Assembly: GCA_011033025.1 (NCBI GenBank)
Contig: WFMF01000001.1
Span: forward strand, 611,755 to 675,754
Length of the DNA stretch: 64,000 nucleotides
Origin: Beroe forskalii
Lineage: Eukaryota; Ctenophora; Nuda; Beroida; Beroidae
Direction: 5' to 3'
Part shown: one piece after another, positions 2,458 to 60,000 of the stretch
Position numbering within the stretch: position 1 is the first letter of the stretch
Layout of the letters: every line of letters begins with the position of its first letter
Translations under genes and position numbers: made by a program
The notes under the pieces: model-generated
Seen by the model: only the letters and a program-made list of their open reading frames with translations
Databases searched by the model: none
What the model was told of the DNA's origin: nothing

Positions 2458-3478
2458 ATGGTACAAGACTTAAAGCCGCGCGCAAGCGCGCAGTACTGCG
2501 CAATGCCGCGTGCGCAGTGCTGTGCAATTAAAAGGAGGCTCCCTCAGAACAAAATAAGATCTGGCAGTTCACGAATTTTTATAAGTCTGAATAACTGGAA
2601 TGTTTTACAAAGTTTGATGGCCGAATGAATTGATCAAATCTTTCCAAATGGTACTGGTGAAAACTATGCTAGAGTAGGCTATGCAATAAAACATTATCAA
2701 TCGAATTCAAATTAAAGAAGCGTTCTTCAATCCTCGGAGGTAATAACAAAGGTGATGCTAAAGCAGCTGGAGTTAAAGCATACGATTATCAAAATGAAGA
2801 ATTCTTGGAAATCCAAAAGACAGGCTTGTTGGAACCCTCCACTTTCTCAAGTGATTCAGTGAAATGGCAGATAAATCAGAATCCTGATTATTGGAATGCC
2901 TGAGAGAATGATTAGCTTTAAGTTTCAGAAGCAACTGAGTGATCAACCCATTAGCAATAACCCACAAAATGGTACAAGACTTAAAGCCGCGCGCAAGCGC
3001 GCAGTACTGCGCAATGCCGCGTGCGCAGTGCTGTGCAATTAAAAGGAGGCTCCCTCAGAACAAAATAAGATCTGGCAGTTCACGAATTTTTATAAGTCTG
3101 AATAACTGGAATGTTTTACAAAGTTTGATGGCCGAATGAATTGATCAAATCTTTCCAAATGGTACTGGTGAAAACTATGCTAGAGTAGGCTATGCAATAA
3201 AACATTATCAATCGAATTCAAATTAAAGAAGCGTTCTTCAATCCTCGGAGGTAATAACAAAGGTGATGCTAAAGCAGCTGGAGTTAAAGCATACGATTAT
3301 CAAAATGAAGAATTCTTGGAAATCCAAAGACAGGCTTGTTCGGAACCCTCCACTTTCTCAAGTGATTCAGTGAAATGGCAGATAAATCAGAATCCTGATT
3401 ATTGGAATGCCTGAGAGAATGATTAGCTTTAAGTTTCAGAAGCAACTGAGTGATCAACCCATTAGCAATAACCCACAA
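2458..3478. repeat. Near-identical tandem duplication, unit about 511 bp
   Basis: Two head-to-tail copies, about 2458-2968 and 2969-3478. By eye they differ only by a few bases and small indels, for example around 2821 and 3331. Each copy starts with a GC-rich stem-prone segment (GCGCGCAAGCGCGCAGTACT). The near identity suggests a recent duplication. Confidence 0.9.
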
Positions 3479-3786
3479 AACGTAAAATCCACCAGTCCTA
3501 ATCTTGTATCAATGCGACTGAAACCACATTAGAATGACATGAGTTAAATAGTAGGTGATAAGCGACAAAAAGTTCAAAACCCTGAAAAGAGCATTGATGA
3601 CGTCTAACGCATATCTAAGTCAGTGTCATACATAAAGCCGAGTACACAGGCTCATATATGAAAAAGCTAATCTTCAAGAAGTACAGATAATCCTCAAGGA
3701 AGTACAGGATATATATTGGACCAGATCCTGTCGAGAGGTGTATAGGAGTACAGGGCAAAGTACTCGGAGAATTCTAAAGGCTAAAG

Positions 3787-3829
3787 TGACGTCATTATCA
3801 GGGGTTAGTGTAGTCAGTTGATGACACGC
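3787..3829 (+). repeat. 43-bp dual-TGACGTCA module
   Basis: Left box TGACGTCA, right box TGACACGC, spacer begins TTATCAGGGGTTAG. Confidence 0.75.
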
Positions 3830-3954
3830 TCATATTTCTCCACTATATGGCCCGTAGTATGGTGACTTGGGTAATGATCGTATATAATCACACAACACTG
3901 AGCTCAAAATACAATGCTTCCGGCTGAGTGCTGTGTACGGTGATTAGGTTCAGG

Positions 3955-4048
3955 AATTAGGGTCTTTCTTCATACTGAATTAGGGTCTTTTATCAGGTTG
4001 AATTAGGGTCCTTCATGATGTTGAAATAGGGTCTTTCATCAGGGTTGA
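3955..4048. repeat. Short tandem repeat with AATTAGGGTC core
   Basis: Four to five copies of an approximately 26-bp unit, TGAATTAGGGTCTTTCATCA and variants. Confidence 0.7.
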
Positions 4049-5989
4049 ATGGCAGAGCTTCTCCAGGCGACTATTGGGATAAAAGCCAGTCCTGCAGTAA
4101 TCAGAATAAGTCCTTAATTGTAGGACTGGATTTTAAGATGTATGAAGTATTTTCTTAAGAATCGGTTACTTAGAGGACTGGTATTTGTCTATCCGTCCTA
4201 GCTCAAATACTCAAATAGAGAAATAGTACAAGAGTACAGCTGTAGTCCATATAAACCGAGGCAAAGACCGAAGTTAAATTGGAAAAGTTTGTAGTTTTTA
4301 CAAGTCATAAACTGAATTATGCAACGCATCAAAATAAGGGTGTTGTCAAACATAAGGATAACTCAGCAATTATAACACCTACACCAGGCAAATTCAAGCG
4401 TAATAAATGATTGCTCACTGTTCCAAGAAAGCTAATAGATTCTTCATGTTCAATTATCAGGCTCCTGTTTCATGATGAATCATTGTTAAAACTTCAAAGT
4501 GTACATGGTTTAAAAATACACTGCCTAAATACTACTCATCGAGACAGCATACAAATAGGAGATCTTGGCATGAAAAATACGGAGTTTCACCGATTATTAA
4601 GTGCGCGCGCACTCTCTACAATCTACTCACTTAGGATACAATCAGTAAACTATGAGATAAGATACTAGGACTCTACAAGTATTCTAAAAGGATACACCAA
4701 CTAGAGAGATTCATGATCTAGCCAGGCTAATGTACCGAACATTGAACATGTGAAATAGAGGAAAAATCGACAATATCGCCGTTTTCATATACTCGGATGA
4801 AGCAAGGCTAATAATTTTGTAATTGATAGTCCTGAAAAGATCTGATGTTAAACGATATGAAACCAATGGCAATGCTGATATGTATGCAATCATCAAGGAA
4901 TTTCGTCTTCTTAAAATGTTAATGATCTCTTCATCTTGATCAACGGATACCATCCAAGAAAAATAAGTGATACTAAAAGTCCATAAATAGAATTGAAAAT
5001 CTGGGCTTATTCAGACCATAATAAACCTCCCACCCTATAACCTTTACAAATCCATATTATGCTAAAGACGAGGCAGTGTTTCTTGACGAATCTAGAAGCA
5101 GGAGAGAATTAACAAAGCTGACAATCATCAGTAGGAGAGACGTCAATATGTCTGTACACACAAAAACTATCCTCTCACGTCAACAATTGCCAATTCTAAC
5201 TCAAGATAGTGGCTCCGGCAACAGCTTCTTTCTTTCTAACCTGACAAAACAAACTCGACCGAGACAAACCTAGCACTACACTACGCATCTATAATATAAT
5301 TTCTTTCAAGTAAAAAGTATTGAATGATGCGTCGTAACCTGCCTACATAAACCAGGCCTAGGTATCATCGCTAGATCTCCGATCTGCTGTATAATATGGT
5401 GTGTATTATTATAGTTGAAGCCACCAAACCTTCAGACAAAATACATTTGAATATAAAATTCCAAGGAGTATCAATGTATCAATGTGAGACACGTACCCAC
5501 AATAGCTCCGTCCATTTTTTTCGCATATTGATATTTATTGAATATTTTCTTAAGAACGTAAAAACGGAATTTAAGTATTTTAAGTAACAGGAAAGAATGA
5601 GCAAGTTCAGAAGAATTGGCAGATTGTTTGAGCGAGGTTTGAAAACATTCTAACGCCTAAATCAGCGTGAAATGGCTCTGAGGACCAAAACAATCGGAAA
5701 ACGAGGCTGTGAGGCACCAGTTACTAAAAACTTTATTGCATAAATCATATCGGTTCAAAAAACCACAATGATTTCGTTCAAGAAAAACGTTATGAATGTG
5801 GTCATATGGACTGCAGGGTGGTTTGCAAGTAAGTGTAATTGCGTCAGAGGCTAAAACCTACGGAAAAAAGGGCGTGTGCGGCTCCAACTGAAACTTTCAC
5901 GTAAAAAGGAATAGAAACATATGCAGCTAGTAGACCAGCTCCGGATGAGTGGAGGTGTAATTGCATCTGAGATAGGAAAACCTCTTAAA

Positions 5990-6170
5990 AAGTTTTGCAA
6001 AAAGTAAAAACCTTCATTATAAGAAAGTTATGCGAAACAGTAAAATCCATTCATTATAAAAAGTTATGCGAAACAGTAAAACCCCTTCATCATAAAAAGT
6101 TATGCAGAAGAGTAAAACCCCTTCATTACAAAAAGTTATGCAGAAGAGTAAAACCCCTTCGTTACATAAC
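5990..6170. repeat. Minisatellite, about 36-bp unit
   Basis: About five copies of a unit containing AAAAGTTATGCGAAACAGTA and CCCCTTCATTA. It runs directly into the next, unrelated minisatellite. Confidence 0.8.
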
Positions 6171-6174
6171 CGCG

Positions 6175-6690
6175 CAGAATATCCCCTCCTTCTCCGCACA
6201 AACACCGTATATCCCCGCGCACAAACACCATACATCCCCGCGCACAAACACCACCCATACATCCCCGCGCACAAACACCATACATCCCCGCGCACAAACA
6301 CCATACACCTCCGCACACAAACACCATACATCCCCGCGCACAAACACCATACATCCCCGCACACAAACACCGTACATCCCCGCGCACAAACACCGTACAT
6401 CCCCGCGCACAAACACCCTACATCCCCGCGCACAAACACCGTACATCCCCGCGCACAAACACCATACATCCCCGCGCACAAACACCGTACATCCCCGCGC
6501 ACAAACAACACAAAAATTGAAAATACATCCCCGCGCACAAACACCATACATCCCCGCACACAAACACCACCAAAATACATCCCCGCGCACAAACACCGTA
6601 CATCACCGCGCACACACACCGTACATCCCCGCGCACAAACACCACACATCCCCGCGCACAAACACCACCAAAATACATCCCTGCTTAACA
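6175..6690. repeat. CpG-rich 23-bp minisatellite
   Basis: About 20 copies of CATCCCCGCGCACAAACACC plus a 3-bp RTA-type linker. The array leaves long open frames on both strands (for example 6017-6715 minus and 5995-6777 plus) with simple peptide repeats. I treat these as by-products of the repeat. Confidence 0.9.
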
Positions 6691-6860
6691 ATCTGCACAA
6701 ACACCGCCCGTACATCCCTACAAGCTTTCATTCACTACTTAACCAATTTGATATATTCCCCTTCCATCATGTCTTGACATCATGAATTTAAGTATAATAT
6801 ATATTAGTCCAATATAAATGATGGCTTATAGCCCGGACATGGAAAGCAGGCAACTGAAAA

Positions 6861-15959: not shown

Positions 15960-18240
15960 AGCAGCCTAACGCAGGTAAAGGGCTCAATAATCAGTGATCA
16001 CTCCACAATCTAAGTGAAAAAAAAGTTTGGTTCAGACTCTTAGGCGCCACTCAAAAATGATACCTTCATTCAGTTTGGTTCTTTCAGTCTTTGCACGACA
16101 AAAAATAACAGAGTCTTGAGTCTTGACATCAAGGCATCATAAAACAATAACATCTGCAACATGCGGCGCAATAATGCCCTTTTAGGCCTTCTAAAGCAAC
16201 AAAGGGCGCTAAAAATAAAGCATAAAAGTGACCAACCATGATTTGTTCATTTTGAAAAAAAACTTTAAAATTGAGTTCACATAATGTATCAGTTATTTAC
16301 AAAATTAAGAGCATTGAGAATCCTTTTAAGATTTATATAACAATCAATGCATCTTTTAATACTTTACGTTTCATAGTTCATCCATTCTACACTACGATCA
16401 TTGACTTGGATTAGGATTCAGGAATCAGCTCAACCATGACGAGGATAGACTAATGATGAGGAAAGATGAATGAGAGTAAAGCAATCATGATAAGGACGAA
16501 TGAAGTTCCTCTGACTTGACTTCAAGTTTTGCGTCACACTCCAACATATTTACTGATGTTCAATCTGTGTAAACATACAGCTGCATATTGTGTATGTACA
16601 GTGTAAGTCAATATAAATATAGTTAACTCAGTACACAAGAAAATATAATATAGTTAACTCACATGTATTCATTTAAGGATTTTCTTCGCCTACGTATACC
16701 AGAGGATGATGAGAAATCGGCGCAAACAAGCTACTTTAAAAGGACGATATATCCATATGATATCACGATATATAGGTATATAAGGCTAATATCAATACAA
16801 CAAAAAACAACAAAAATATGGCTTATTTTTATATTTTGATCTAGTCAAGCTTACATATATATATATATAAAGTTTAACTTGTTTCAGAAAGATCTTTTTA
16901 GTTACAAACGACCTGTCCGCACACAGCCTCAAGGATCGTCTACTTGGTCTGCCTGTAGAGTACTGGGGAAATGACCAAAATGGGAGATGAAAATGTTATG
17001 ATTGCAGCTCATAACCCGGTCATCTTAGGGTAGTATAAGAAAAGTAGGCGGTTAAGGGAGTCATGTCAGGATTAGGGGTTAGAATGGGGAGGCAGTGACC
17101 TTGAAAAGCCTATTTGCTCGGGGTGAGCCGAGGTAGTATATATAATGAATACTTTATTATAAACGGTATAAACGTGCGTCATGGAAGGAACTTACCATTG
17201 GTCATTTGGGAGAAAGTCTGCCCTAATATATATAGAGAATGTCTTAGCTGGTATATATATCATAAGTACAGTGTGTATCTTGTTTGAAAACATGATCAGT
17301 CATGCAGTGGATTAGATGTCGGCATTAGTTGGACACGTCAGCAAGTCTACATGGTAAAGCTAGATAATGACGTCACACAGTTTACACCCAATCATAACCT
17401 CCAAGGCTCAGATAAGAGATCGGTAAACGGTTAGCCTTATTAAAATACTGCTAAGAGATGTAAATTGTTTATCAGCCGCCGGTTCACAGATATGCGCAAA
17501 AACCTGGCGTATAAAAAACCTATAAAACCTGGCGTATCGTGTAGAGACAAAACCTAAAAACCTATAAAACGCTCTATGTATCCTCAGGACCAGTAACAGT
17601 CCGAGGAGGTTTACTGATGATGTCTGATGATCTCTGCTGACGAATAAGATGATTTCAAGGACAGCTGTATAGGCCGGAAAAATATGCGAGATCGCATGTC
17701 CGAGCTATCGAGTGGAATATTAGTATCCAGATGAAAACAAGACTATAAAGCCGATGAAAAAGAATATATATTTCCAATACAAACAATATATATATTTATA
17801 TATACAAGTTTATGATCAACGCTACAAAAAACATAAGTTGAGTAAATCCGTGGTATTGTATCACAGAAGGAATTTTAACAATTCACAGGTCCACAGTGCG
17901 AACAATGCATAATTGGCGGTACTCGTGAAGGTTTCGCGCAAAAATAATAATTTTTCCGGAATGGGAATGGAAGTATATAAATCTGGTTGCATTTAAATAT
18001 ACATTATCGCGGCATTGTGTACTGATTATAGTTGTGCTGTGAACGCTGAATAGATATATTTATACGATTTGACATAAATCTAGATTGTAACTTGTAGAGA
18101 CTCAGCACTTAAAACGTTCATTTGGTGGCAAGCGCGCGTGAAGTATTGATAATTGAGTGGCTAAATGCGTGGCGAGCCAATATACACAAAATCAGTGATT
18201 ATCTCGATAACAGAGATGATATGAGAAACTGAGATAGTTT
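15960..18240. other. Intergenic, AT-rich
   Basis: Contains (TA)n tracts near 16855, a shortened 43-bp-module relative at 17064-17104 preceded by GTAGGCGGTT, and a full module at 17333. No exon seen. Confidence 0.4.
17333..17375 (-). repeat. 43-bp dual-TGACGTCA module
   Basis: Boxes ACACGTCA and TGACGTCA, reverse orientation. Confidence 0.7.
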
Positions 18241-18990
18241 TTAACTTGACACCAGAGTTCATTGACACCACCATGTTTGTTTTGACACCAGAGTGCATTG
18301 ACACCAGGTCAGAGTTAATCTTGACGTCAGAGTCTATTGACACCAGTTCAAAGTTAATCTTGACACGACAGTGTACTGACACCATACCAGTGTTTATCAT
18401 GACACCACAGTGCACTGACACGAGTTCAGTGTTTATCTTGACACCGCAGTGCATTGAAACAAGTTCAGCGCTATTCTTGACACCAGAGTGCATTGACACC
18501 AGTTCAGTGTTTGTCTTGACACCAGAGGGCATTGACACCAGTTCAGTGTTTATCTTGACACCAGAGTGTATTGACACCAGTTCAGTATATATCTTGACAC
18601 CATAGTACACTGACACCATTTCAGTGTTTATCTTGACACCACAGTGCACTGACACCAGTTCAGTGTTTATCTTGGCACCAGAGTGCACTGACACCAGTTC
18701 AGTGTTAATCTTGACACCACAGTGCACTGACACCAGTTCAGAGTTTAGAATTGACTTCTATGTGGGTTTGGCATCGAAATAAAGTGAAATTTGGAGTTTG
18801 AAAGATGACACCACAGTGATGGACGATAAATGGAAGTATTGAAATCTTTTGACATGTCACAGTGCACTGACACCAGTTCAGTGTTGATCTCAATCAAGTG
18901 CACTGATAACCAGTTCAGTGAACAACACTGCGTACATTGACACGAGTTCAGTGTTTAAAAATTGCCATCTGTGTGCATTGACGCCATTGT
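18240..18990. repeat. 39-bp minisatellite, open on both strands
   Basis: About 15-18 copies of a unit with TTGACACCAGAGTGCATTGA and CACCAGTTCAGTGTTTATC. The unit is 13 codons long, so a 13-residue peptide repeat is open on the minus strand (18161-18733) and another on the plus strand (18246-18605). Copies decay to the right of about 18760. Most likely non-coding satellite. Confidence 0.9.
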
Positions 18991-23792: not shown

Positions 23793-23796
23793 TTAA

Positions 23797-23955
23797 AGGA
23801 CGAGTGTACTTAAAATTAACCTATCCTCATATTCAAGTCATATGTCAATTACGTGTTACTAAGCATTTCTGTGAAATCCCGGTAATCAAATTCCCTTCCT
23901 ATCGCGTGTGAGAGCTAAATAAATAAATTACGCTGTGACGTCAGTTCTTCCTTGT
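23797..23955 (+). repeat. Left terminal inverted repeat of the transposon
   Basis: Terminal block 23797-23816 and subterminal block 23936-23955, with diverged sequence between. The subterminal block holds a perfect TGACGTCA. Confidence 0.9.
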
Positions 23956-24355
23956 GCGCTCTCGTATATACTGCGTGAGAGCTTATTTACACCAGTTTTA
24001 TATCATAATGAAAGCGTTTCTGCTGATTATAATCATTAATTTTTAATGAGAAATTTAAAGAGAAATTTAAGATCACACCTGTGAGTGATAGCAATAGTAA
24101 TACAATGTAAAATCATGTGCATAAATGAGAAAAGGATTCAATAAACCAATCAAGAGTCAGGATATATTCGGATATCATTATGAATAGACGTGATATCATA
24201 TCTGTAAGTTTCACATTTCAATAATACCATACAGCACTACAATAACAATGAGTACAATACACCAGTTTTGTTATCATTTTGTGTCGATGTTTCTTGTTTT
24301 CCAGTCGTACAGTTGTCAGTGTTTAATACAATAGTCTAATCAAAATTCAAATTAC

Positions 24356-26674
24356 TTATTTATCTGGCATCCTACTAAGAGCCTTGGAGAGGAGATCATC
24401 TTTAGAGGGCTTTTCAGTCATGTGAAAAGTTTTGGGAACTGCTTTCCTAATGTAAAGAGACAGATCAAATGTACAACATCTGTTCTCTCCAATACAAGTA
24501 ACAACCTCAGACAAAATGTTCTTCTTCAGTAGCATAGTATCTCTCTGGTTGCTGTTCTTCAGGACGTATATTTTCTGTGCTCGAGAGTAGGCTGCAACTT
24601 TATGAGACGTAGTTGGAGCAGTAAGACCATGATTATGTTCTAGGGCTGTTAGCATTGTCATAAGGATGTGAGTGTCCATTTTATAGGCATTACATTTAGG
24701 TAGATACTTGAGTTTTGAACTATGAAACGATTCAAGTGGTCCAGTGTGGAGGAACTTCTCACACTTGCGCATATCGTTGCACAGCCTAGTATCGGTGAGA
24801 ATTTTAAAGAGGACAATGAAATCAGCATCTCCGACAGAAAACCACTTCCCTGTACGGTGAACACGCTTAGTGAGAGGCAGATGTAAACATTTTTGGTTTT
24901 TACTGGCTAATGTGGGGGCTTTTGGGTAGGGTTTCTTTCCACGAAGTTCCGCAAAAGTAGTTTTGAGTTTTTTACTTCTCGGCCAAGAATGAACATTGAG
25001 AACGTGAAACAAGCTGGAATGGAACAGCTCCAGTAGTAGGTCTGGATTTTCATTACAAGATTGTGCACTCCACCAAAAGTGATTGACGAGATCGTTAGTC
25101 CAGGCTAAGATTTTTGGGTACTTCTTTCCAGCCTTATCTAGTTTTTTCCGAAGTCTCTTAGCAGTGTGCCAGATATCATATCCGTGGTACACACTTGGGA
25201 ACTGCTCTCGTATCATTTTGGCAATTGGGCCATGACAGTCAGAGACAAACGAATTCACAGCCAGACCATCTTCATTGATCAATACATTCAGGAGTTCCTC
25301 ACAAGCTTGTTTCTCCAGTTCTCCTTCATACTGGCCTTTCTGGACCACAAAAAAGTCTACAACCTTGTTTGTTACTGATTGCATCATAGTATAGGTACAA
25401 AATTTTGCACTGTACCCTGGACTATCAAATTGTCCATCGCCACTCAATACGATTTCATCTGCAGCTTTCAAGTCGGCGATGGTACCCTCCTTCATTGATC
25501 GGTATTTCGTGTAAATAACAGGGAAAAGCCATTTTCGACCAAGCTGGTAAAAGCTCTTCTTCGTCACTAGTGGTATTTCTAGTAGAGAGAAAAATGATTT
25601 CAACTTAGCAAAACCAACACCACTCATCATTGCAGAAGCAGCAAATTTGACATTGACGTGATATTTCTTGTGAAGTAATTCTCCCGAACGCCAGGTATGG
25701 GTATGCCCCATGGCACATACATACTCAACTGCGACAGCAACTCCAGAGTACCGCACAACAGTTGATAGTATTCTACTGCCACACAGGAAACAGTAAATGA
25801 AGAGAAGTTTCAGCTGCTCCATGCCAACAATTACTGCAGAAACTGGTGTCTCCACTACTCGTTTCTTCTTTTTTGAGTAGTACTGCCTTCTATTCCAGGT
25901 ATTTTGCGAAGAGGCACTCTCAGCATTCGGCTGTAAATCAAATGAAGGGTCAGTTTCTTCTGAGTCACTAATTCCTGAGACACTTACTTCGTCCTCGCCC
26001 ATGAAATTATGTTGATTAACTTCATTCAACGATGGAAAGCATTTGCAATTGAAATCAGTCTGGGTAGTCATTGATTTTGTCCTGTTCACTGAAACTGCTG
26101 GCTCTGGCACATTTAGAAATGATGCTGATTGTGTGTCTTCATCACCACTTATCAAACTTGATTCCATGAACTCTTCGGCTGCAGTCGTTCCAGGGTCGTT
26201 GATACTCTGCTCACCATCACTGTGTTGACCTACTATTGCCTCATTCTCTTCAATTATATCATCAATCCTGCTCAATGCAATGTTTCTTTTCTTCCTTTGT
26301 CTTGAAGGTTGTGTGGCATCCTCTGAGCAAGATGTATGTATCCTCTTTAGTCCTGACGATCTATCAGTGTTAGGAATTGCATCATCTTTCAGGGTTATCT
26401 TCAACCCCTTAGTGCTTTCATTTCTATTGTGCAACTGAAGAGATTGTTGGTACTGTCTGTAATTAAAATCATTTTCCTCAAAGTGGTCAGAACAAACAAC
26501 CATTTTCTTTGCATTGATATCACATGGCCGTCGATCGATTCTTTCCATCCACATCTTTGCCCTTGTTGAGTCTTTAGGGAATGGATAAAATCGCATGAAA
26601 TGACGTAGTGCACTGGTACTTTTTCCATGCCTATTTGAGCAGTTACCAGCACAGCAATAGCTCATGAATATCAC
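24356..26674 (-). CDS. THAP-domain transposase (Kolobok-like)
   Basis: A single uninterrupted frame of 772 codons. Residues 7-64 form a THAP C2CH zinc finger: C7, C12, C61, H64 (VVCSDHF), with the usual FYPFPKD and MWMERI motifs; this domain binds DNA, probably the terminal repeats. Residues 100-280 are acidic/Ser-rich linker ending in a basic KKKKR. A second Cys/His cluster (C295, C298, C320, H324) precedes the catalytic part. Likely DDE residues are D413 in SGDGQFDSPG, D479 in SFVSDCHG and E648 in TGPLESFHSS. Cut-and-paste transposition in the nucleus is the expected role. The start could be M1 or M4. All expected motifs are present and there is no frameshift, so the protein may be functional. 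Its divergent neighbour starts 126 bp away, so they may share a promoter. Confidence 0.9.
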   Translation of the reverse strand: MIFMSYCCAGNCSNRHGKSTSALRHFMRFYPFPKDSTRAKMWMERIDRRPCDINAKKMVVCSDHFEENDFNYRQYQQSLQLHNRNESTKGLKITLKDDAIPNTDRSSGLKRIHTSCSEDATQPSRQRKKRNIALSRIDDIIEENEAIVGQHSDGEQSINDPGTTAAEEFMESSLISGDEDTQSASFLNVPEPAVSVNRTKSMTTQTDFNCKCFPSLNEVNQHNFMGEDEVSVSGISDSEETDPSFDLQPNAESASSQNTWNRRQYYSKKKKRVVETPVSAVIVGMEQLKLLFIYCFLCGSRILSTVVRYSGVAVAVEYVCAMGHTHTWRSGELLHKKYHVNVKFAASAMMSGVGFAKLKSFFSLLEIPLVTKKSFYQLGRKWLFPVIYTKYRSMKEGTIADLKAADEIVLSGDGQFDSPGYSAKFCTYTMMQSVTNKVVDFFVVQKGQYEGELEKQACEELLNVLINEDGLAVNSFVSDCHGPIAKMIREQFPSVYHGYDIWHTAKRLRKKLDKAGKKYPKILAWTNDLVNHFWWSAQSCNENPDLLLELFHSSLFHVLNVHSWPRSKKLKTTFAELRGKKPYPKAPTLASKNQKCLHLPLTKRVHRTGKWFSVGDADFIVLFKILTDTRLCNDMRKCEKFLHTGPLESFHSSKLKYLPKCNAYKMDTHILMTMLTALEHNHGLTAPTTSHKVAAYSRAQKIYVLKNSNQRDTMLLKKNILSEVVTCIGENRCCTFDLSLYIRKAVPKTFHMTEKPSKDDLLSKALSRMPDK

Positions 26675-26800
26675 CTACTGAAAAATAATAAGATGAATTT
26701 GTTGATTTTGCAATTTGAACCATATACCTATAACCTATTACTCATACTGAATTGTGTACTAAATCAAATTTTTGTTTCAAGGCTCATCTGTTAACCAAAT
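26675..26800. promoter_or_regulatory. Divergent intergenic region between the two transposon ORFs
   Basis: 126 bp of AT-rich sequence separates the two start codons, so a bidirectional promoter is likely. No clear TATA box. The plus ORF start context is ACCAAATATGG. Confidence 0.45.
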
Positions 26801-27451
26801 ATGGCCGAAAAAGCAGATTCAGATGGCAGCAACGACGGCTTTGAAACAGATTCAAGTTTAGGATCATCCTATGAAAGTCAAGATGAATATGAAAGCGATA
26901 ATGACACTGAAAATACGACCACTCTCATGTTTACTATGGCACTGGTGCCTACCCGAGATGATCTAAGTGATCACAGTAGTGATGATGAAGTGTACGAATG
27001 CGATTCCTCCAGTGAGACTGATTCGGATTCTGAGGTAGTAACACAGTGCAAGTGTGATAAGTGCCCACAAGCAGCCGATGATGGATGCTACTGTTGTACC
27101 GAAATCTCTGTGGCAGAGGATATCAAAGAAGGCCATCGGTGTATTACAGAGGTGGAGCAGTTCGTAGAATGCATTGGTAATGTGACTGTACTAGAAATGG
27201 CTGCATTTTCCGTAAACAAAGGGAGAGTGTTTCCAACAAGAGATGAAGTGGAAAAGTTTAATAGACTGATGCGACACACAGCATACAGGACATTCCTGCA
27301 TATTCTTAATTTTAGAGGTTTGGGCATAGGTAAAAGGTACAGGCTTCCATCCTGCGTTGAGCACGTAATCAGAGGATTATACCCTAGCCCTAGTGGACAA
27401 TATACAGGTTTTCATGGGTTAGACCAATTTAATTCACTGAAAGAATTCTAA
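26801..27451 (+). CDS. P2X7-receptor-tail-like zinc-binding protein encoded by the transposon
   Basis: 216 residues. Residues 1-80 are acidic and Ser-rich (low complexity, probably disordered). Residues 83-204 match, in order, the landmarks of the C-terminal cytoplasmic domain of P2X7 receptors: a CxCxxC start (C83, C85, C88), GCYCC (C96, C98, C99), C114 in CIT, LMRHTAYR (156-163), RLPSC (181-185) and GQYTGF (199-204). No transmembrane segment or ion-channel part is present, so it is the isolated tail domain. In P2X7 this cysteine-rich domain binds zinc and guanine nucleotide; the transposon protein may keep zinc binding, but its role in transposition is unknown. It is inside the terminal repeats and divergent to the transposase. 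The domain identification is from remembered motif order and needs a profile search. Confidence 0.8.
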   Translation: MAEKADSDGSNDGFETDSSLGSSYESQDEYESDNDTENTTTLMFTMALVPTRDDLSDHSSDDEVYECDSSSETDSDSEVVTQCKCDKCPQAADDGCYCCTEISVAEDIKEGHRCITEVEQFVECIGNVTVLEMAAFSVNKGRVFPTRDEVEKFNRLMRHTAYRTFLHILNFRGLGIGKRYRLPSCVEHVIRGLYPSPSGQYTGFHGLDQFNSLKEF

Positions 27452-27820
27452 TTATCACGAAGAACTTGTGGAAATTACAACAATGCCACAACGAGTTAAC
27501 GAGTTAGTTGAAAACTATACACTGTTGTCTAACGCATATCAGGGATATCATACATAGATACGTCTTGTTCTTGTTGTACTATGTCTAAAGGAAAATATGT
27601 TCACATAATAATAATATCTAGATTTTGTCATTATTGATTAATATTTAATATATAGTGCGTTATTAAACAGCAGAAGATTTATTGTTATCAACCAGATTAA
27701 TGAACAACAGAAGTTTTGTGATCTGCATCGAAACAAAACAATAATAGATCAATCAGGTATAGCAACAGAATTAGTGTTTACATAGCGATTTTACATACAT
27801 GGCGGCTGTGGGCAGTGATT

Positions 27821-27999
27821 ACAAGGAAGAACTGACGTCACACGATAAGGTATCATGTTTCTAATTTACGCCCATATCTTGCGTTACACACGGAGTAGAG
27901 AGGTGGGACTTTCGTTATTCGATTACTATAATAATAACTATGATATACTGAATTTTGTGTTATATTTAGAAGAAGTCAATTTTTAAGTACACCCGTCCT
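27821..27999 (-). repeat. Right terminal inverted repeat of the transposon
   Basis: Subterminal block 27821-27840 (perfect TGACGTCA) and terminal block 27980-27999, inverted relative to the left end. The spacing is 20 bp longer than on the left. Confidence 0.9.
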
Positions 28000-28019
28000 T
28001 TAAGTCACGAACTAGGGTT

Positions 28020-42189: not shown

Positions 42190-42825
42190 ACATCATGGTA
42201 GTGGTACAGGATTCAGGGATCAAGAGAATGGGAGTGGTACAGGAATCAAGAGGATGGGAATGGTAAAGAATTCAGGAATCAAGAGAATGGGAGTAATACA
42301 GGATTCAGGAATCAAGAGAATGGGAGAGGTACAGGAGGCAAGAGAATGGGAATGGTAAAGAATTCAGGAATCAAGAGAATGGGAGTAATACAGGATTCAG
42401 GAATCAAGAGAATGGGAGTGGTACAGGATTCAGGAATCAAGAGAATGGGAGTGGTACAAGAACCTATTCAGGAATCAAGAGAATGGGAGTGGTACAGGAT
42501 TCAGGAATCAAGAGAATGGGAGTGGTACAAGAACCTATTCAGGAATCAAGAGAATGGGAGTGGTACAGGATTCAGGAGTCAAGAGAATGGGAGTGGTACA
42601 GGAACCTATTCAGGAATCAAGAGAATGGGAGTGGTACAGGATTCAGGAGTCAAGAGAATGGGAGTGGTACAGGATTCAGGAATCAAGAGAATGGGAGTGG
42701 TACAGGATTCAGGAATCAAGAGAATGGGAGTGGTACAGGATTCAGAAATCAAGAGAATGGGAGTGGTACAGGAACCTATTCAGGAATCAAGAGAATGGGA
42801 GTGGTACAGGATTCAGGAGTCAAAC
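42190..42825. repeat. 33-bp minisatellite with 44-bp variant units
   Basis: About 18 copies of a unit with CAGGATTCAGGAATCAAGAG and AATGGGAGTGGTA. Some units carry an extra AACCTATT block in a semi-regular higher-order pattern. The 33-bp length keeps several frames open (11-residue repeats); not treated as genes. Confidence 0.9.
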
Positions 42826-42829
42826 CCAG

Positions 42830-45110
42830 CTTTTTCGGGTCCTATATCAGTGTTTCAACCGCTCGATTTTCCGTAAAAAATTCTAATCCAGATCGAAAAC
42901 ATTCCGCACTTCCGCAGCCACCCAGCATGCTGAAATGTGGAACAACCCAGAATATTCATGATGATCAGGATATAGTATTGGGGTATGTTTGTGTTTTAAT
43001 ATAGATTGGGTGGCTTCGCTCCAAAGGGGCTGTTTCAGAGCGGGTTTGGTTGGTTCCACCTTCCAAATTATCAATGCCCGGAATTGAAAATGCGTGGGTT
43101 AACCATGGTGAGAACAAACAAACAGTCAAGTACAATTATTGCCAAGCTTCACAAAGACTAACTCATATAACATCAAGATGAAATAGAACTGTGTTGGTAT
43201 CAATTGTCAAACGTAAGGAAATATCTTAACCAAAATCCTGAATCTGTAAATACAAATTATGTCGTAGTAATAGGTTATGTTCCAAGCCTGGTGAACTCAG
43301 TGGAAGTCCTTGCTGTACGGCATGTGAAACAAGGATTTGAAACTGAGGGGTTCTGTACTATTGTGACTTATGTGAAATAAGTCAATTTTATGTTTGAATG
43401 TAACACATGAGCTGATTTTCAATTGCAAGGTTCTTTCGAACCATCATCATCCATAAGTGCAGCAGTCATAATTGAGGATCCCACTATATAGCGGAATGGT
43501 TTATATAATTAGTATGGCAAGTCCGAGATTAGAAAAAGAAAAAAGAAAAAAACCTATTACATTTTATGGCAATTAATAAATTGAATTCAATTTAGAGAGA
43601 AAGAAATATTGAATATTAATTTAGTAGCCCATGAAATTAAATATATAAAATTGATCAATAGCATGGCATCCAGAGCATAAAACGGAATCTTCTCCATAGA
43701 ACTTCCTCTTGAACAAGAAAAACAAATTAAAGGAGAAGATAAGAGAAAATACAGCTGGCCGGGCTCTCAATTTGAATATATAATAACATATGACGTATGA
43801 CAACGGAATTAGCCAAGAACATCCCCAAAGACCATCAATCATATGCAACTCTGCGTAAAGATACGCGAATATGATATGACGACATTGCCATATGTTTTGC
43901 AATGTAAAGGGGTGACGTTTGAGCGCCGATTGAATGAACTGAGACAGCAGAGTTCCATGGAGAGGTAGGTCATAAAGCGGGTCTGGTGCCAGTTAGATGC
44001 TCTTAATGCTAGGTCTTTCCGCCTCAGTGCCTACAAGCACTGGAACATGAGCATTCTGTTGAATTACAGGGGCGTCTAATTCACATTAAAAGAGAAGAAA
44101 TCCTACTGCTAAAACACAAGGAAATATATTTTCCAACCAGTTCATTACCACACGAAAATATATGTTGCAAAATATATCTGAAGTGCAGCAATGAACATAT
44201 AAAATATAGGATATATCGTTTAGCTGAAAGCTGACGTAATATACCTGCGACAGTGTCTCACAGGATACTCCGCAGACAATAGGCCTAGAGACTGCTTGGA
44301 CTGGAATTACTGTGTGCTATTGTGCAGCAGTTGAACCAGCCTGACATACCTCCCGGCCATGCTATCACCGAGCAATGCCCGGGCTTGTGGAACGTTATGT
44401 GCGTTAAATAGGCGAGATTACGTTGGAAATTAACCATTTAAACGCGTGATAATGACGTCATAGAGCATTACAGATCGTATTTTTAGGAGAGCTTCATATA
44501 TATCTTGAGTTATGTCGCACAGAGACAGAATGTAGCCTAGACAAAATTATTACATACAATTAACAAAACACAGACTCCTAACTATCGCATGTTTATTTTG
44601 TTTATGTTATATTATGAGCGGGTCTAGCGTTAAATATGTCATCGTAAATCATATGAGTACGTTATAATTTGGGATTTATTTGAGTACGTTAATTTGAGAT
44701 ATTTATTAACTTTATTCAGTCGAGCACCCGGCCCGGGTACAATAAACTAATGACGGGATAAATTCGACCATCTTGAACCGGAAAGTCATCCCGAAACGGA
44801 GCAATATGGCTGAAGGAAATAGAATAAAGATATATGCGCGCAACAAAGTAGAATAGGTGAATGATAAGGAATATAAACAGATCGCATGGTAATAAATAAG
44901 CAACATAATTAATTGAGTAACAGACTTAGTTAACAAACAAGTTTGTTGATTATTAGTTGGTTGAGTGATTAACAGACCAAGAAGCAAGTAAATAATTAGT
45001 AAGATAAATAATCAATTAGCTCATTAATCAACTAATTAATCAAATGATTAATTGATTAACTAACTAACTAATTAATTAACCGATTAATTATCTTATTAAC
45101 GAACAGACAA
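42830..45110. other. Intergenic, AT-rich
   Basis: Contains a 43-bp module at 44418 and a TAATTAA-rich tract at 44995-45090. A short frame at about 43910-43964 ending GGAGAG|GTAGGT could be an exon, but nothing else supports it. Confidence 0.35.
44418..44460 (-). repeat. 43-bp dual-TGACGTCA module
   Basis: Boxes TTACGTTG and TGACGTCA, preceded by AAATAGGCGAGA. Confidence 0.75.
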
Positions 45111-54081: not shown

Positions 54082-57000
54082 ATGATGGATAACACTTGGT
54101 ATAACATCGCAATTATTTGTCTTTTCCTCGTTTTCGGGTCCATCCTCAACTTGTTGGTCCTCATTATAATTCTTAGTTCGAGGAGCTTGCAGACTATTCA
54201 CAACAAGTTTATATGTCATGTTGCAGCTGTGTCCTTCATTGGTGAGTATACCTTACGAGATATGTTTATGAGGAAAATCTTGGAGATTTTACGAAAAAAT
54301 CGCTTTATTTCCGCACCCCCTATAATTTCAATATGATATTTTCTTTCACTGAACTATTCATTTTACTGATATCGTTGATATAATCTTTTTCTGCCTAACA
54401 TCATTTGCTAAAATTCGGCATATTTCTATTCACATATTTCTAGTTTTTGTTCTAGTTCTTATTCTAGTTTTGTTCTGAACAGGAACGTCTACATTGCACA
54501 GCATTTCCTTGGTGGATCTGACAGACTCTGTCTTCATCTCTGAGGATTACCTTTGTCAAACCAACCAGTTTCTAGGACAGCTCTGTCTTTCAACTACCAC
54601 CCTACTCCTGCTCCTATTTGGCTTTTACAGGTGACTATTTCACTGCTATTTGCCTTTTAAAGGTGACTATTTGACTGCTATTAGGCTTTTATAGCCTACA
54701 GGTAATTTACAGGTTGAACATTTCATATTGAGATATTCTGGTGTTGCTATTTCAGAACACAAGGAAATATAGTTTACCCTCTCTAACCATGTCTCTCAGG
54801 TTGATGTCCACCATTCGGCCCCTCACAATACTGGTTCACGTGCGAGTTAAGACGATTAACTTGATCCTGGTGGTGCCCTGGATGTGTGCTGTGCTGCTTA
54901 CAGTTCTAGTCAATTTCATGGGGGACCAGGGAGACTGTGTGCTGAATGATTGGTCTGATGGTGCAAGTTAGTGCGATATAATCAGTACAATACGATGTAT
55001 TGAATCAGAGATATCAGTGATACTAAGTTTTGTTTCTATGTCTTGATTCAAGATTGAATCAATAATTGATTCATTTAAATTGGCGAGACATTTGTTGGAT
55101 CAAAACTGTATTGGATCAAATCAATTTCAATGACTGTTCAACAGACACTCTAATATTCAATTTGTCAAATTTTCAGGCTTGAATTTCATCATATACTTCT
55201 GTCTGATGGCTGTTGTGCCAGTTGCATGTCACATGGGTTTCTTCATTACTATTCTCGTCAAGAAAATGAAGAATAAAAAGAAAACCCTCGAGGTAAATGT
55301 CCATTGTTTGGATTTAATAAATGTAAAATTTTAATACATCAGTTTGGGAAACAATCACAAACAGATATTGACAGTAAAATTAAAAACAGTGACTTGGCCA
55401 TAACTGAGACTTTTTACAGATCCAGCAGTACCACAAATCTCACTGGAGGAGCAACGGCAGTATGCAGACCCCAGGGAGCAACATGGTCATTAACAACCCT
55501 AACACTGACCCTGAAAACCAAACCAGGTAGATCAACTAGAAATATGTGAAATGTTTTGATCAGGGGCTTTCGAAAATCATTATCTTCGTCACTGTTGTTT
55601 ATGTCATGTTCATTAAACCAATGATTCATTTAACCCGTGATTCAAGAAGCCATTGATTCATTAAACCAGTGATTCATTCAACCAGTGAATCATTTAGCCA
55701 GTGATTCATTTAACCAGTGATTCATTTAACCCGTGGTTTTCTACTTCCAGTGCTGCTAGGAGGTGGAGGGCCCAATCCAACCTAACCTTACCGGACTGCG
55801 ATGAACGTGAACCTCAAGCAGACATGACCTGCGCCTCGTATGAGAACTACGATGGATTAAATTCAGGTGAATCATAGAAAATTGTGATAAGGGATCGTTC
55901 ACATATTACGTAATCACCTAGGGGGAGGGAGGCGGTTTCTGAATGATTAAGTTACATTTTGTTGTAACAAATACAACTATTGTAAACATGATTACGAGGG
56001 GGAGGGGGGTTAAAATCGGCCAAAAATTGATTACGTAATATGTGAACGATCCCTAAGGAGGACCGATTTGGGGAAGAGTAAGTTGAAGGAACGTATATTT
56101 TAGCGTTCTTTCTCTAATGATAATAATAATAATAATAATAATAAAATTTTTCCATCCGGAAACTCTAATATCAAAAATCGTTATCCCTAGACCCATTTAC
56201 TTTCAACACTGTACAATGAAGTAATTATTTCATTAACATTCATTATTGACGATGAGCACTAATCAGGAATTAATGTTGAGGATCAATAGTGGCAAGTGAT
56301 TGAGTAGTAGCTTATTGAGCATTAATGATATTGATTTTACGGCGCTTTGCAACATCTGGATTAGCCACTAAGAAATCAATAAAATCCCACGATTTTCATC
56401 ATTAAGTCTTTTGAATATCTCTTCAGATAATTCCCAATAGTTGCCCGGTTGGTCGTGATTTTTCTCCCTATACGCTGCCAGCCTAGCCTTGAATGTATTC
56501 ACTGTGTCAGCACTTTTCACTTCACCTGGAATCTTATTCCAATACGCAAGGACTCTGTTCGGCAAAAAATCACCATCTAAATGTCCATTCCTGTTGGTAT
56601 ATTTCAGTTTCATACCGCTCCGTGATACATTGTAGAGTTGTTTACCATAAGACACAATGTCGCGAGGTGATGTTATTTTGAATGTTTCAATTAGATCACC
56701 TCTCATTCTCCTTTCAAGTAGAGTGGTCAACTTCAATTCATCTAATCGGTCACGATATGGTAATATACCGACATTGTCTATCATTCTTGTGAACTGCCGT
56801 TGAACTGATTCCAGCTTTAATATCGTATTCCAGTTCCCATGTCTTGCTTTTGGTGACCAAACCTGAACGCAATACTCGAGATGTGGTCTTATTAGTGTTT
56901 TATAAACATTCATCATCACCGGTATGGAGCGAGATATGACATTCCTTGAAACCCAACCCACCGTTTGCTTTGCTTTTTTGATATTTGCATCTATGCAACC

Positions 57001-60000
57001 TTTCCAATCAAGCGTACTGTCAACTAAGATTCCAAGGTCCTTCTCAGAGGTTACTTGAGGGAGGACAGCATCACCAAGTTTGTACTGATTCATCGGGTTC
57101 TTTTTACCCATGTGAAGTACTTTACATTTGTCATCTGCAACATTGAACGTGAGCTGCCATTTCTTCTGCCACTCAAACAGAGAATTTAGGTCTTGCTGTG
57201 ATTCATCAAAGCGGTCGGCTGCAAACAGAGACACGTAGCTTTTACTAATGCTTTCTGGAAGATCATTAATATAAATGATAAAAAGCAGCGGTCCAAGAAC
57301 TGATCCTTGAGGTACACCTGACGAGACACTGAACAAATTTGATAGACAGTCGCCTACTCGAACATTGAAACTTCTGTTTGAGAGAAAGTCTTTAATAACA
57401 TTCGCTGTCTTCCCAACTATGCCATATTTGTGAAGTTTCTTCACCAGCTTACCATGTGGTACAGAGTCAAAGGCTTTCATAAAATCGAGATACATAATGT
57501 CTACATTGGAACCACTATCTTTAATTTCATGTACTTTATCCATTGCATCTAATAAATTAGATAAACATGACTTGCCTGGTATGAATCCATGCTGGCTCTT
57601 GCTTATCAGAGGGTGAATATAATCCAGAACATGATTCCTAATAACTTTTTCAAACACTTTGGAGAGTACACATGTTAAGCTGATTGGACGATAATTCTTA
57701 ACATCACTCTTGCATCCTTTCTTATGTAATGCCGTCACACATGCAGTTTTCCATACCTTGGGCAATTCACCAGCGTCGTAGCATTTTTGAAACAGGGCTG
57801 TAACCGATTGAACAAAATTAACATCTTTGCTCAGGTTTTTAAGCAGCTTGGGATGAATCCCGTCTGGTCCCATCGATTTAGATTGATTAAGTGCCGACAA
57901 GATCTCCGCTACTTCCGTGCAAGATATTTCTAAATCTTGAATCGTATTAGTGTTAGTGCTGGGTATTGCATGATCTTCAACTCTACTATTCGAGTCGCTT
58001 TCCTTGGTGAAAGTGCTCTCAAAGAATTGGCCAAGTATGTTCGCTGTTTCTTGAGCACTTTGGCACTTTGACACGACTTTTAAAATCTTGAAACACTGCT
58101 TTGTGGACCAAATGGTTCTAATGGCGGTTTCCTTGGGCACGAAGTGCTGAAAACGATTCTGGGCTAAACTATTAGTGTTCCGTCTACGTTAATTATTAAA
58201 AGGCTGCGTTTCTTTTTAATTTCAATCCATCGCAAATGACCAAATATGTATATTCGAATGAGGATTTTAACCCTAAAACCTTCAGGAGAGTTCGAGGAAT
58301 TCGACAGGGCATCCTCAGAACGCAGTGAAGAAGGAGATGGGGTGGATTTCGTGAACACAAACGACATTATGACGCTGGACAACTCCTCCTCCTCCTCTCA
58401 GGTAGCTAAAACGACCGGTTATCTATCATTTCTCAATAAATCCGGTTACGGTTTTGGTTGGCTGAAAACGCCCGGTTAACCGGTATCTCGGTTTCGGTTC
58501 GGTTAACCGGTCGTTTCTCCTCTCAGGGAGGAATTAAGAGTCTTCCGATGATAATATGTCCGATGGACTGAGTTCGGAAAAGGATGGAGATATTGATTTC
58601 ATCATCCCACAGGAAGAGGACTTCTTCCAGGTAAGAAAGAATTTTGATTTAAAAAGTGCATAATTCATTGATTGACAAGTGCCAATTTCCGAATAAATCT
58701 GTATTTTCAAATGAATTTATCCCTAGGACATGATGAACGTTCTCCACAAATCGTTTCGTGGGTCAAAAGACAAGCAGCAAGACTCTGCGTCGTGCAAATC
58801 AGACTCAGGAGAACCGAACATGTCTGGTGAAGGGAGAAGCAATCCTAAGGAAAATGGAGTTGGTCCAGGTGAGGGCTTCCGTTTGGGATAAAAACTGTGA
58901 GATGAGAGCAAGCACCTGATGTAGTGAGAAAACAACTTTGGAACTAAATATGAAAGTTTTCTCAATTTGCAACTTAACAACACGCCATACCTTTTACTGC
59001 CTACACATATTATACTATTACTATTATAGCCACCCACTTGTATTTCAGATGACAACGAGGATAAATCCTTCGACTATGACCCACCCTCCACTGGGTATTG
59101 CAATGGATCCGTCTTTGAGAGACCAGGGACGGAGCAGGGACAATGGGAGGAGGAGGACAGTGTCTCCTCTCTTCCTTCAACCCCCAAACTTCTGCCCTGA
59201 TACCCCACCAATGCCACGGTAACCCTAATCCCTCCCCCTGAAGTACTCTAAGTACTGGAGTATTGATGGTCCAACACAAAGAAATATATTTTCCTTTATT
59301 TCTGATTTCTGGACTTTTGATTATTGTATTATAACCCACACTATCAACCTTGCATTCGAAATGGAACTTGAAATCAGGGATCAAAAATTTTGCATTTAAG
59401 ACTGTGGACTAATTAGGTATTAGTTAAAACACTTAACCACTTTAAACTTAAGGAAGTTGAACAATTCCTAGACATAGCCAATTCATACCGGAACTGACAA
59501 CCTAGCCAAGAGTTCAAAAATGCCCTAACTTCCTAACTAATTATACGACGCGTAAGAGAAATAGGCGGTTCAACGTCATCAACGCACTACATTGAGCTAT
59601 GATAATGACGTCATCCTATCCGCCTATTTCTCGTGCGCGGCGTATAAAAGCTGCATCCTGCTGCAGTTAAATTACATTTCCAATGCTATATTAGGCTACT
59701 TTATAACCTGAATCTACCCGTTCTAGAAGCTCTAGAGGAAGTGATTGTGCCTCGAGAGGATCTGATTACGAGGAAATCGATAATGTCGGAGTAGCAATCT
59801 CACCTGGTACTCCTCAAGGTTTTCAAATGAACAATAATTGAAGAATTGTTTTTGCAGAGAGTCAAAAAGTTAACCAAAAAGTTCCAAAAAGTTAACAACA
59901 ATTTCTATGAATCAGTAAAAAGAGTGGCGTGCCACACTTTTTCCTACATCAAACCCTCCCTTCTCAGAACCAGCTGCATCTCACTCCTCAAGCGGAAGCA

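Follow-up and report, generated by a model that had tools for sequence, protein, structure and literature searches.

The closest described relatives of the locus analysed here are Kolobok transposons of the Kol0 lineage. In the available text of Kojima and Bao (2022, PMC9587614), Kolobok elements are defined by 5'-RR and YY-3' termini, and KolX, the second protein of Kol0, is identified as the "ballast" domain of the P2X7 receptor, which is itself proposed to have arisen by fusion with KolX. Among the main texts of the open-access library searched, this was the only account we found that ties Kolobok to the P2X7 tail.

A 64,000-nucleotide stretch of Beroe forskalii DNA, hereafter the window (contig WFMF01000001.1, positions 611,755 to 675,754), contains an element that resembles Kol0 in its TTAA target-site duplication, its 5'-RR/YY-3' ends (AG at 23797, CT at 27999), its DDD/E transposase with the C/DxxH motif, here DxxH, between the second D and the E, and a second protein similar to the P2X7 C-terminal region with seven conserved cysteines; this likeness is drawn from the published description in the available text of PMC9587614. 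The element also resembles KolobokP, KolobokE, KolobokD and KolobokH in being a Kolobok with a second function; according to the same partial source (PMC9587614) those add nucleases or a helicase, whereas Pfam finds none in the window element. A further parallel is Harbinger with its Myb-like second protein, a two-gene DNA transposon in which, in the text available of PMC9179366, the trees of the two proteins are congruent. The Harbinger proteins are unrelated to those here, and we use Harbinger as a model only and claim no membership.

The initial annotation of the window had read the locus as a P2X7-tail domain travelling as cargo in a Kolobok-like transposon, open to capture by P2X receptors or other host genes. 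The central interpretation holds, yet it had appeared in print in 2022, as had the proposal of capture by P2X receptors (both in the available text of PMC9587614). The placement of the domain in a transposon stands, as does its pairing with the transposase, which recurs in many loci of the genome; the "cargo" reading needs correction. What is added here is a new genome, counts of the pairing, two gene layouts, matching histories of the two proteins, an element with KolX alone and a candidate host gene. We saw no mention of the divergent and tandem layouts or of a KolX-only element in the available part of the Kol0 account (PMC9587614).

Boundaries and genes of the window element

The features of the element are as follows.
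23793..23796, no strand: left TTAA target-site duplication; TTAA also adjoins the ends seen in copies L002-L008
23797..27999, no strand: whole Kolobok-type element, 4,203 bp (inverted ends and TTAA; copies elsewhere at 97-99%)
23797..23815, plus: left terminal inverted repeat, starting 5'-AG (inverted-repeat pair I2)
23923..23955, plus: left subterminal inverted repeat, containing TGACGTCA (pair I1, 85% complementary)
24356..26665, minus: THAP/DDE transposase, 769 codons, open (ORF, Pfam matches, catalytic-motif alignment)
26666..26800, no strand: 135-bp stretch separating the two divergent genes (ORF positions)
26801..27451, plus: KolX-type gene, 216 codons (ORF, Pfam, phmmer, copies)
26801..27046, plus: acidic, Ser/Thr-rich N-terminal part, residues 1-82 (25 D/E, 2 K/R, 25 S/T)
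27047..27448, plus: ballast-like part, residues 83-216; seven of its cysteines align with the zinc cysteines of P2X7 (Pfam, phmmer, motif positions)
27821..27853, minus: right subterminal inverted repeat, containing TGACGTCA (pair I1)
27981..27999, minus: right terminal inverted repeat, finishing CT-3' (pair I2)
28000..28003, no strand: right TTAA target-site duplication

The inverted arms (23793-23815 and 27981-28003) agree at 96% over 23 bp, TTAA counted in. Looking over 3 kb to each side of the genes for TTAA joined to 19-bp inverted ends, with at most 2 mismatches allowed, we obtained one such pair, against none in 200 shuffles of the same flanks. The sole genomic matches to the joined flanks, searched for as an empty site, were the window element's own two flanks, and we therefore infer the insertion from the ends, the duplications and the other copies. 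The repeat search reported no long terminal direct repeats in the element. The subterminal inverted repeats that contain TGACGTCA are a possible protein-binding site, and the 135-bp intergenic stretch is presumably a two-way promoter.

The transposase matches the Pfam families THAP (E 1.8e-14) and Mutator-like transposase (PF20700, E 4.6e-14). It contains D410, D476, DIWH (DxxH, residues 497-500) and E645, which we take to be the catalytic residues by analogy with the Kolobok transposases of PMC9587614. Across 11 transposase loci, where the letters align, the three acidic residues are kept in 10/10, 9/9 and 9/9 cases, and DxxH in eight of nine, with C581 as the exception. Three further near-full-length copies of the element (97-99%) carry both genes; the second ORF is whole in C558 and lies in two frame-broken pieces in each of C112 and C154. 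Frame breaks in other copies are often single-base indels and contig C107 looks poor in quality, so some of these breaks are probably assembly errors.

The initial annotation is thus borne out on the matching ends and TTAA duplications, with exact coordinates, on the intact transposase, and on the divergent second ORF within the same terminal repeats. In the window element we apparently have a whole Kolobok transposon of the KolX-bearing type (Kol0) that moved not long ago. It provides an open two-gene system, probably the ancestral setting of the P2X7 ballast, where the role of that domain could be put to experiment.

The KolX-type protein and the P2X7 ballast

A profile search, which had been proposed as a check, places the 216-residue protein in P2RX7_C (PF20478) at E 8.2e-13 and 49.1 bits, against a cut-off of 23.5, with residues 34-204 aligned to positions 31-191 of the 192-position profile. 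Neither a second Pfam family nor the P2X channel domain PF00864 appears at E up to 1, and the protein thus has no channel part. The ordered P2X7-tail motifs that had been noted were all located: CxCxxC (83-88), CYCC (96-99), RHTAYR (from 158), LPSC (from 182) and GQYTGF (from 199). In a phmmer search against the P2X7 chains of the PDB the best E is 5e-4, and the seven cysteines aligned to the zinc cysteines are C83, C85, C88, C98, C99, C114 and C185. Among 17 KolX-type proteins of the genome, six of these are kept in all and the seventh in 16. R158, H159 and R191 align with the GDP-binding R546, H547 and R578 of rat P2X7, R158 and R191 being kept in 17/17 proteins; rat R574 and K583, also GDP-binding, are without a match in the same alignment. 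The P2X7 ballast folds with two zinc ions; an AlphaFold prediction of the protein from one sequence reached a pLDDT of 43 and was set aside.

Like the P2X7 ballast and the NANOR-like proteins described by Rump and others (2020, PMC7016195, available text), the protein has the P2RX7_C domain, the seven zinc cysteines and two arginines at the positions of R546 and R578; it lacks the channel and is encoded in a transposon. Ballast-type genes number fewer than 10 per species in the available part of PMC7016195, as against 75 PF20478 loci in the genome studied here.

Recurrence and history of the pairing

A Kolobok transposase lies within 6 kb of 28 of the 75 PF20478 loci, and of 22 of the 30 ballast ORFs whose frame is open over 180 codons or more; for a random point the expected fraction is about 0.0025. 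The loci show two layouts, divergent and tandem, and both genes are enclosed by one TTAA inverted-end pair also at L039 and L041. We consider it highly improbable that the locus joins a ballast-domain host gene and a lone transposon, whether by accidental adjacency or by capture. C697 shows that host-like ballast ORFs can stand without a transposase, but both genes share a single pair of inverted ends in this element and in two further families, near-full-length copies elsewhere carry both, and most open ballast loci are paired; on these grounds chance neighbourhood was rejected.

Transposase and KolX distances agree over nine paired loci (Mantel r 0.81, p 2e-4), which rules out capture by a single element and argues that KolX is an old co-inherited partner, not recent cargo. 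In both trees one branch parts divergent from tandem layouts, with support of 100/99 for the transposase and 61/59 for KolX; the KolX tree thus supports the split weakly, and it has flagged long branches. Between the window and C758, 106 of 116 synonymous and 136 of 454 nonsynonymous KolX sites differ, which shows that the KolX protein was conserved while these two elements diverged.

At the C438 pair (L018/L040 and L019), KolX has a dN/dS of 0.28 (14 synonymous, 18 nonsynonymous; Fisher p 8e-4), and the common 2.07-kb unit starts with TTAA-AG in both and differs at its right edge; this pair may be mobile or host. TTAA inverted ends were not found within the stretches examined at C268 (L056) and C379 (L058). 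As for viral contigs, three stretches fit a pattern and none was confirmed.

Role of KolX and elements that carry it alone

With a probability of roughly 0.8, we read the window element as an apparently complete, recently moved KolX-bearing Kolobok whose second protein is a trans-acting transposition accessory. The C-terminal part of KolX would adopt a zinc-centred fold like that of the P2X7 ballast. Through its ballast surface and acidic tail the protein would attach to the transposase, to the transposon ends or to a host factor, and the zinc domain may act together with the transposase. On the model of the Myb-like second protein of Harbinger (PMC9179366, available text), KolX would assist nuclear entry, assembly or regulation of the transposition complex. 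Its action would be in trans, because shortened family copies that lack a whole KolX gene have spread, as have KolX-only elements that lack a transposase gene.

Several observations count against an accessory role. Eleven of 40 transposase loci, several of them fragments, have no KolX match within 6 kb, and three of these are open at 696-781 codons (C271, C370 and C914:258k); KolX is absent from the 2 kb downstream of the open C370 transposase. KolX of C427 and C329 shows no constraint (dN/dS 0.93; 4 synonymous, 15 nonsynonymous changes). KolX might instead be a passenger with its own purpose, linked to the transposase only by the common element, that adjusts copy number, weakens silencing by the host or alters host gene expression. 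The spread of KolX-only elements and the open transposase without a downstream KolX fit this alternative, as does the proposal, reported in the available text of PMC7016195, that the related Nanor acts in transcription. We nevertheless find it doubtful, given the common history over nine diverged loci, which is expected of a working partner and also of mere linkage without recombination.

The KolX-only element, of which we found no description in the open-access literature (the same scope as above), is about 1.7 kb long, flanked by TTAA and present in seven copies. Probably these are ordinary internal-deletion derivatives in which KolX survives by chance and recency and is uninformative on function: at 95-99% identity the copies are too recent for selection to be visible, three of the seven are frame-broken in the ballast part itself (C159, C295b and C272), and the same ends also occur as 18 pairs of element-like size (1.48-1.57 kb), of which the one sequence read throughout is non-coding. 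Against this, one KolX-bearing unit recurs in seven copies, and the ballast part is readable in one frame in four. The "cargo" description suits these elements better; it suits the two-gene elements poorly, KolX there having a common history with the transposase and a conserved protein. A more speculative and, we think, unlikely extension is that KolX is a trans-acting partner also mobile alone, in a split system with transposase-bearing elements, such that small TTAA elements spread by providing KolX or by making use of it, and free KolX units are a ready source of the ballast domain for host genes (P2X7, Nanor, perhaps the C697 gene).

Host genes may take up the ballast domain, P2X7 being the published case. 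The KolX-only element suggests a transposase-free route for such uptake, a point of relevance to the fusion model already proposed for P2X7. A candidate host capture in this genome is the single-copy 724-codon ORF at C697, which ends in a ballast domain and has no transposase alongside.

The window element and its P2X7-tail-like protein

The Kolobok-type element, 4,203 bp long and flanked by TTAA at each end, occupies exactly the interval proposed in the initial annotation, 23797-27999. Its inverted ends match at 96% over 23 bp, the TTAA counted in, and a scan around the window genes for TTAA plus 19-bp inverted ends returned a single pair, with none in 200 shuffles. The element contains the following features:

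23923-23955 and 27821-27853, subterminal inverted pair (85%), with the palindrome TGACGTCA in each
24356-26665, minus strand, transposase of 769 codons, open, with THAP and Mutator-like DDE domains
26801-27451, plus strand, ORF2, a KolX-type gene of 216 codons, divergent from the transposase and 135 bp from it

It is possible that the palindrome serves as a binding site. The 216-codon protein, which had been likened to the P2X7 tail from its motifs, does match Pfam P2RX7_C (PF20478), with most of the profile covered (E = 8.2e-13), and a search of the PDB returns P2X7 chains (best E = 5e-4). A single-sequence structure prediction did not confirm the ballast fold (pLDDT 43). We put the probability that the element carries a P2X7-tail-like (KolX) protein at about 0.95.

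The KolX protein of the Kol0 lineage is described as resembling the C-terminal region of P2X7, a ballast fold with seven cysteines (Kojima and Bao 2022, PMC9587614), so that the result given here was already in print and is now seen in one more genome. The same paper reports a related protein in a few piggyBac families, states that P2X7 originated when a P2X4-like gene fused with KolX, and regards Nanor as a likely domesticated KolX. The ballast domain was described across animals by Rump and others (2020, PMC7016195), in whose text a word search found no transposon terms. Relative to the parts of PMC9587614 compared here, our analysis adds two layouts with shared descent, a KolX-only element, and a candidate on contig C697.

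Pairing and shared descent of the two genes

A PF20478 profile search of the genome (216 Mb, 1,134 contigs) gave 76 matches that merge into 75 loci; the control genomes gave none (0 of 14). The corresponding transposase search gave 78 matches in 40 merged loci and scored 58 of 123 candidates, so the pairing counts are lower bounds. A transposase lies within 6 kb of 28 of the 75 loci (28 of 120 when all KolX-like loci, shortened copies included, are counted), and the chance of this for a random point is approximately 0.0025. All 28 pairs fall into two layouts, 18 divergent and 10 tandem, the latter with KolX downstream of the transposase and in the same orientation. Pairing is seen at 22 of the 30 loci with a stop-free frame of at least 180 codons (12 divergent, 10 tandem). 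When 12 loci were scanned for TTAA plus 12-bp inverted ends with up to 2 mismatches, five had an end pair: the window copy, a tandem locus with both genes inside (L039), a divergent locus with both genes inside and a broken transposase (L041), and two KolX-only copies (L054 and L057). No such pair was found at L018, L021, L040, L042, L043, L056 and L058, several of these stretches being incomplete. KolX and the transposase reside together in one mobile unit, and the zinc cysteines are kept: in a set of 17 KolX-type proteins from this genome, which includes some near-copies, all have the same six of the seven and 16 also have the remaining one, C83. R158 and R191, invariant in the same proteins, align with R546 and R578 of rat P2X7 (PDB-chain alignment), the two GDP-site residues of P2X7 kept across animals (Rump and others 2020, PMC7016195).

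The two genes also have shared descent. Across nine loci, transposase and KolX identities correlate in a Mantel test (r = 0.81, permutation p = 2e-4). In both trees one branch divides the divergent from the tandem group; its support is 100/99 in the transposase tree and drops to 61/59 in the KolX tree, where long branches were flagged. As the best single ORF per locus was taken, only part of the transposase is represented for C403, C329, C196 and C1042; the sequences of C403 and C329 overlap in 129 columns only, and C427 was excluded because its transposase is in pieces. Constraint on the KolX protein is seen in one comparison, that of the window with C758, where 106 of 116 synonymous and 136 of 454 nonsynonymous sites differ; C427 and C329 give a dN/dS of 0.93, with no constraint. 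Separately, contig C438 holds two oppositely oriented KolX ORFs (L040 3151-5155; L019) in a shared 2-kb unit (92%) with TTAA-AG at its left edge and differing right edges.

Copies with one gene and the possible role of KolX

Besides the window, three long copies of the element are present (C112, C154 and C558; 97-99% identity), of which the C154 copy lacks the first 403 bp and the C558 copy is interrupted by ~4.7 kb of other sequence. Ends that never contain ORF2, the outcome named in the initial annotation as counting against it, are not observed among the four long copies: ORF2 is intact in C558 and in two frame-broken pieces each in C112 and C154, where, as in C558, the transposase matches are disrupted by stops or shifts. 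A fifth copy (C447) holds the first 1,365 bp only. The remaining matches are mostly two blocks, 1 to ~517 and ~3468 to 4203, and these shortened copies (mostly 80-92% identity) retain no more of ORF2 than its final ~60 codons and have therefore spread without the whole KolX gene in cis.

Eight open loci are without a transposase, and three of these (C181, C196:279k and C295:24k) are copies of one KolX-only element of 1.68-1.77 kb, both TTAAs counted, which has AGGTGCAGTCCGGGATAT and its complement as ends and contains one KolX gene and no transposase.

TTAA-flanked copies of the KolX-only element
L054, 2583-4259
L055, 2271-4042
L057, 2212-3978

The genome has seven such copies, the query counted, 95-100% alike over the part searched and too young for selection to show. 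Both ends are within 2 mismatches in six, C1112 having the right end only, and the ballast part is in one frame in four (C295a, the only copy open throughout, C181, C196 and C1112) and broken in three. These ends bound 29 pairs in the genome, 18 of them 1.48-1.57 kb apart; the one read from this class (L067) has no 100-codon frame and no KolX or transposase match, and at 4.1 kb the longest pair, on C132, belongs to the same type and contains a satellite. No transposase match of the genome search lies inside any of the 29, including C836, C193 and C185 (2.0-3.8 kb). The KolX-only elements are most simply explained as arising from a two-gene element by internal deletion and being moved in trans. 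In L068, a short-unit satellite has grown at ~1350-2240 inside one of the 1.5-kb elements that have these ends.

The converse case is also found: the open transposase of C370, a member of the tandem clade, has no trace of KolX in the 2 kb downstream, and 11 of the 40 transposase loci, several of them fragments, have no KolX match within 6 kb. Either KolX is not required, then, or it is provided in trans, or dead copies have lost it. By analogy with the Myb-like protein of Harbinger (PMC9179366), KolX would be an accessory protein working in trans, and we somewhat favor such an accessory role.

A candidate host gene and other features

On C697 (L042 2221-4395), the C-terminal part (residues 575-720) of a 724-codon, Ser/Pro-rich frame is a ballast domain, matched at E = 1.3e-17 and with 7/7 cysteines. 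The 570 codons ahead of this domain match only themselves in the genome, and no transposase was found in the 8.4-kb stretch searched. Judged from its sequence, the frame may represent a host gene to which the ballast domain was added.

Elsewhere in the window, a 606-codon open stretch at 56371-58188 (minus strand) resembles, by eye, a non-LTR retrotransposon reverse transcriptase, and tandem repeats with several open frames and repetitive translations lie at ~6000-6780, 18160-18760 and 42200-43000.
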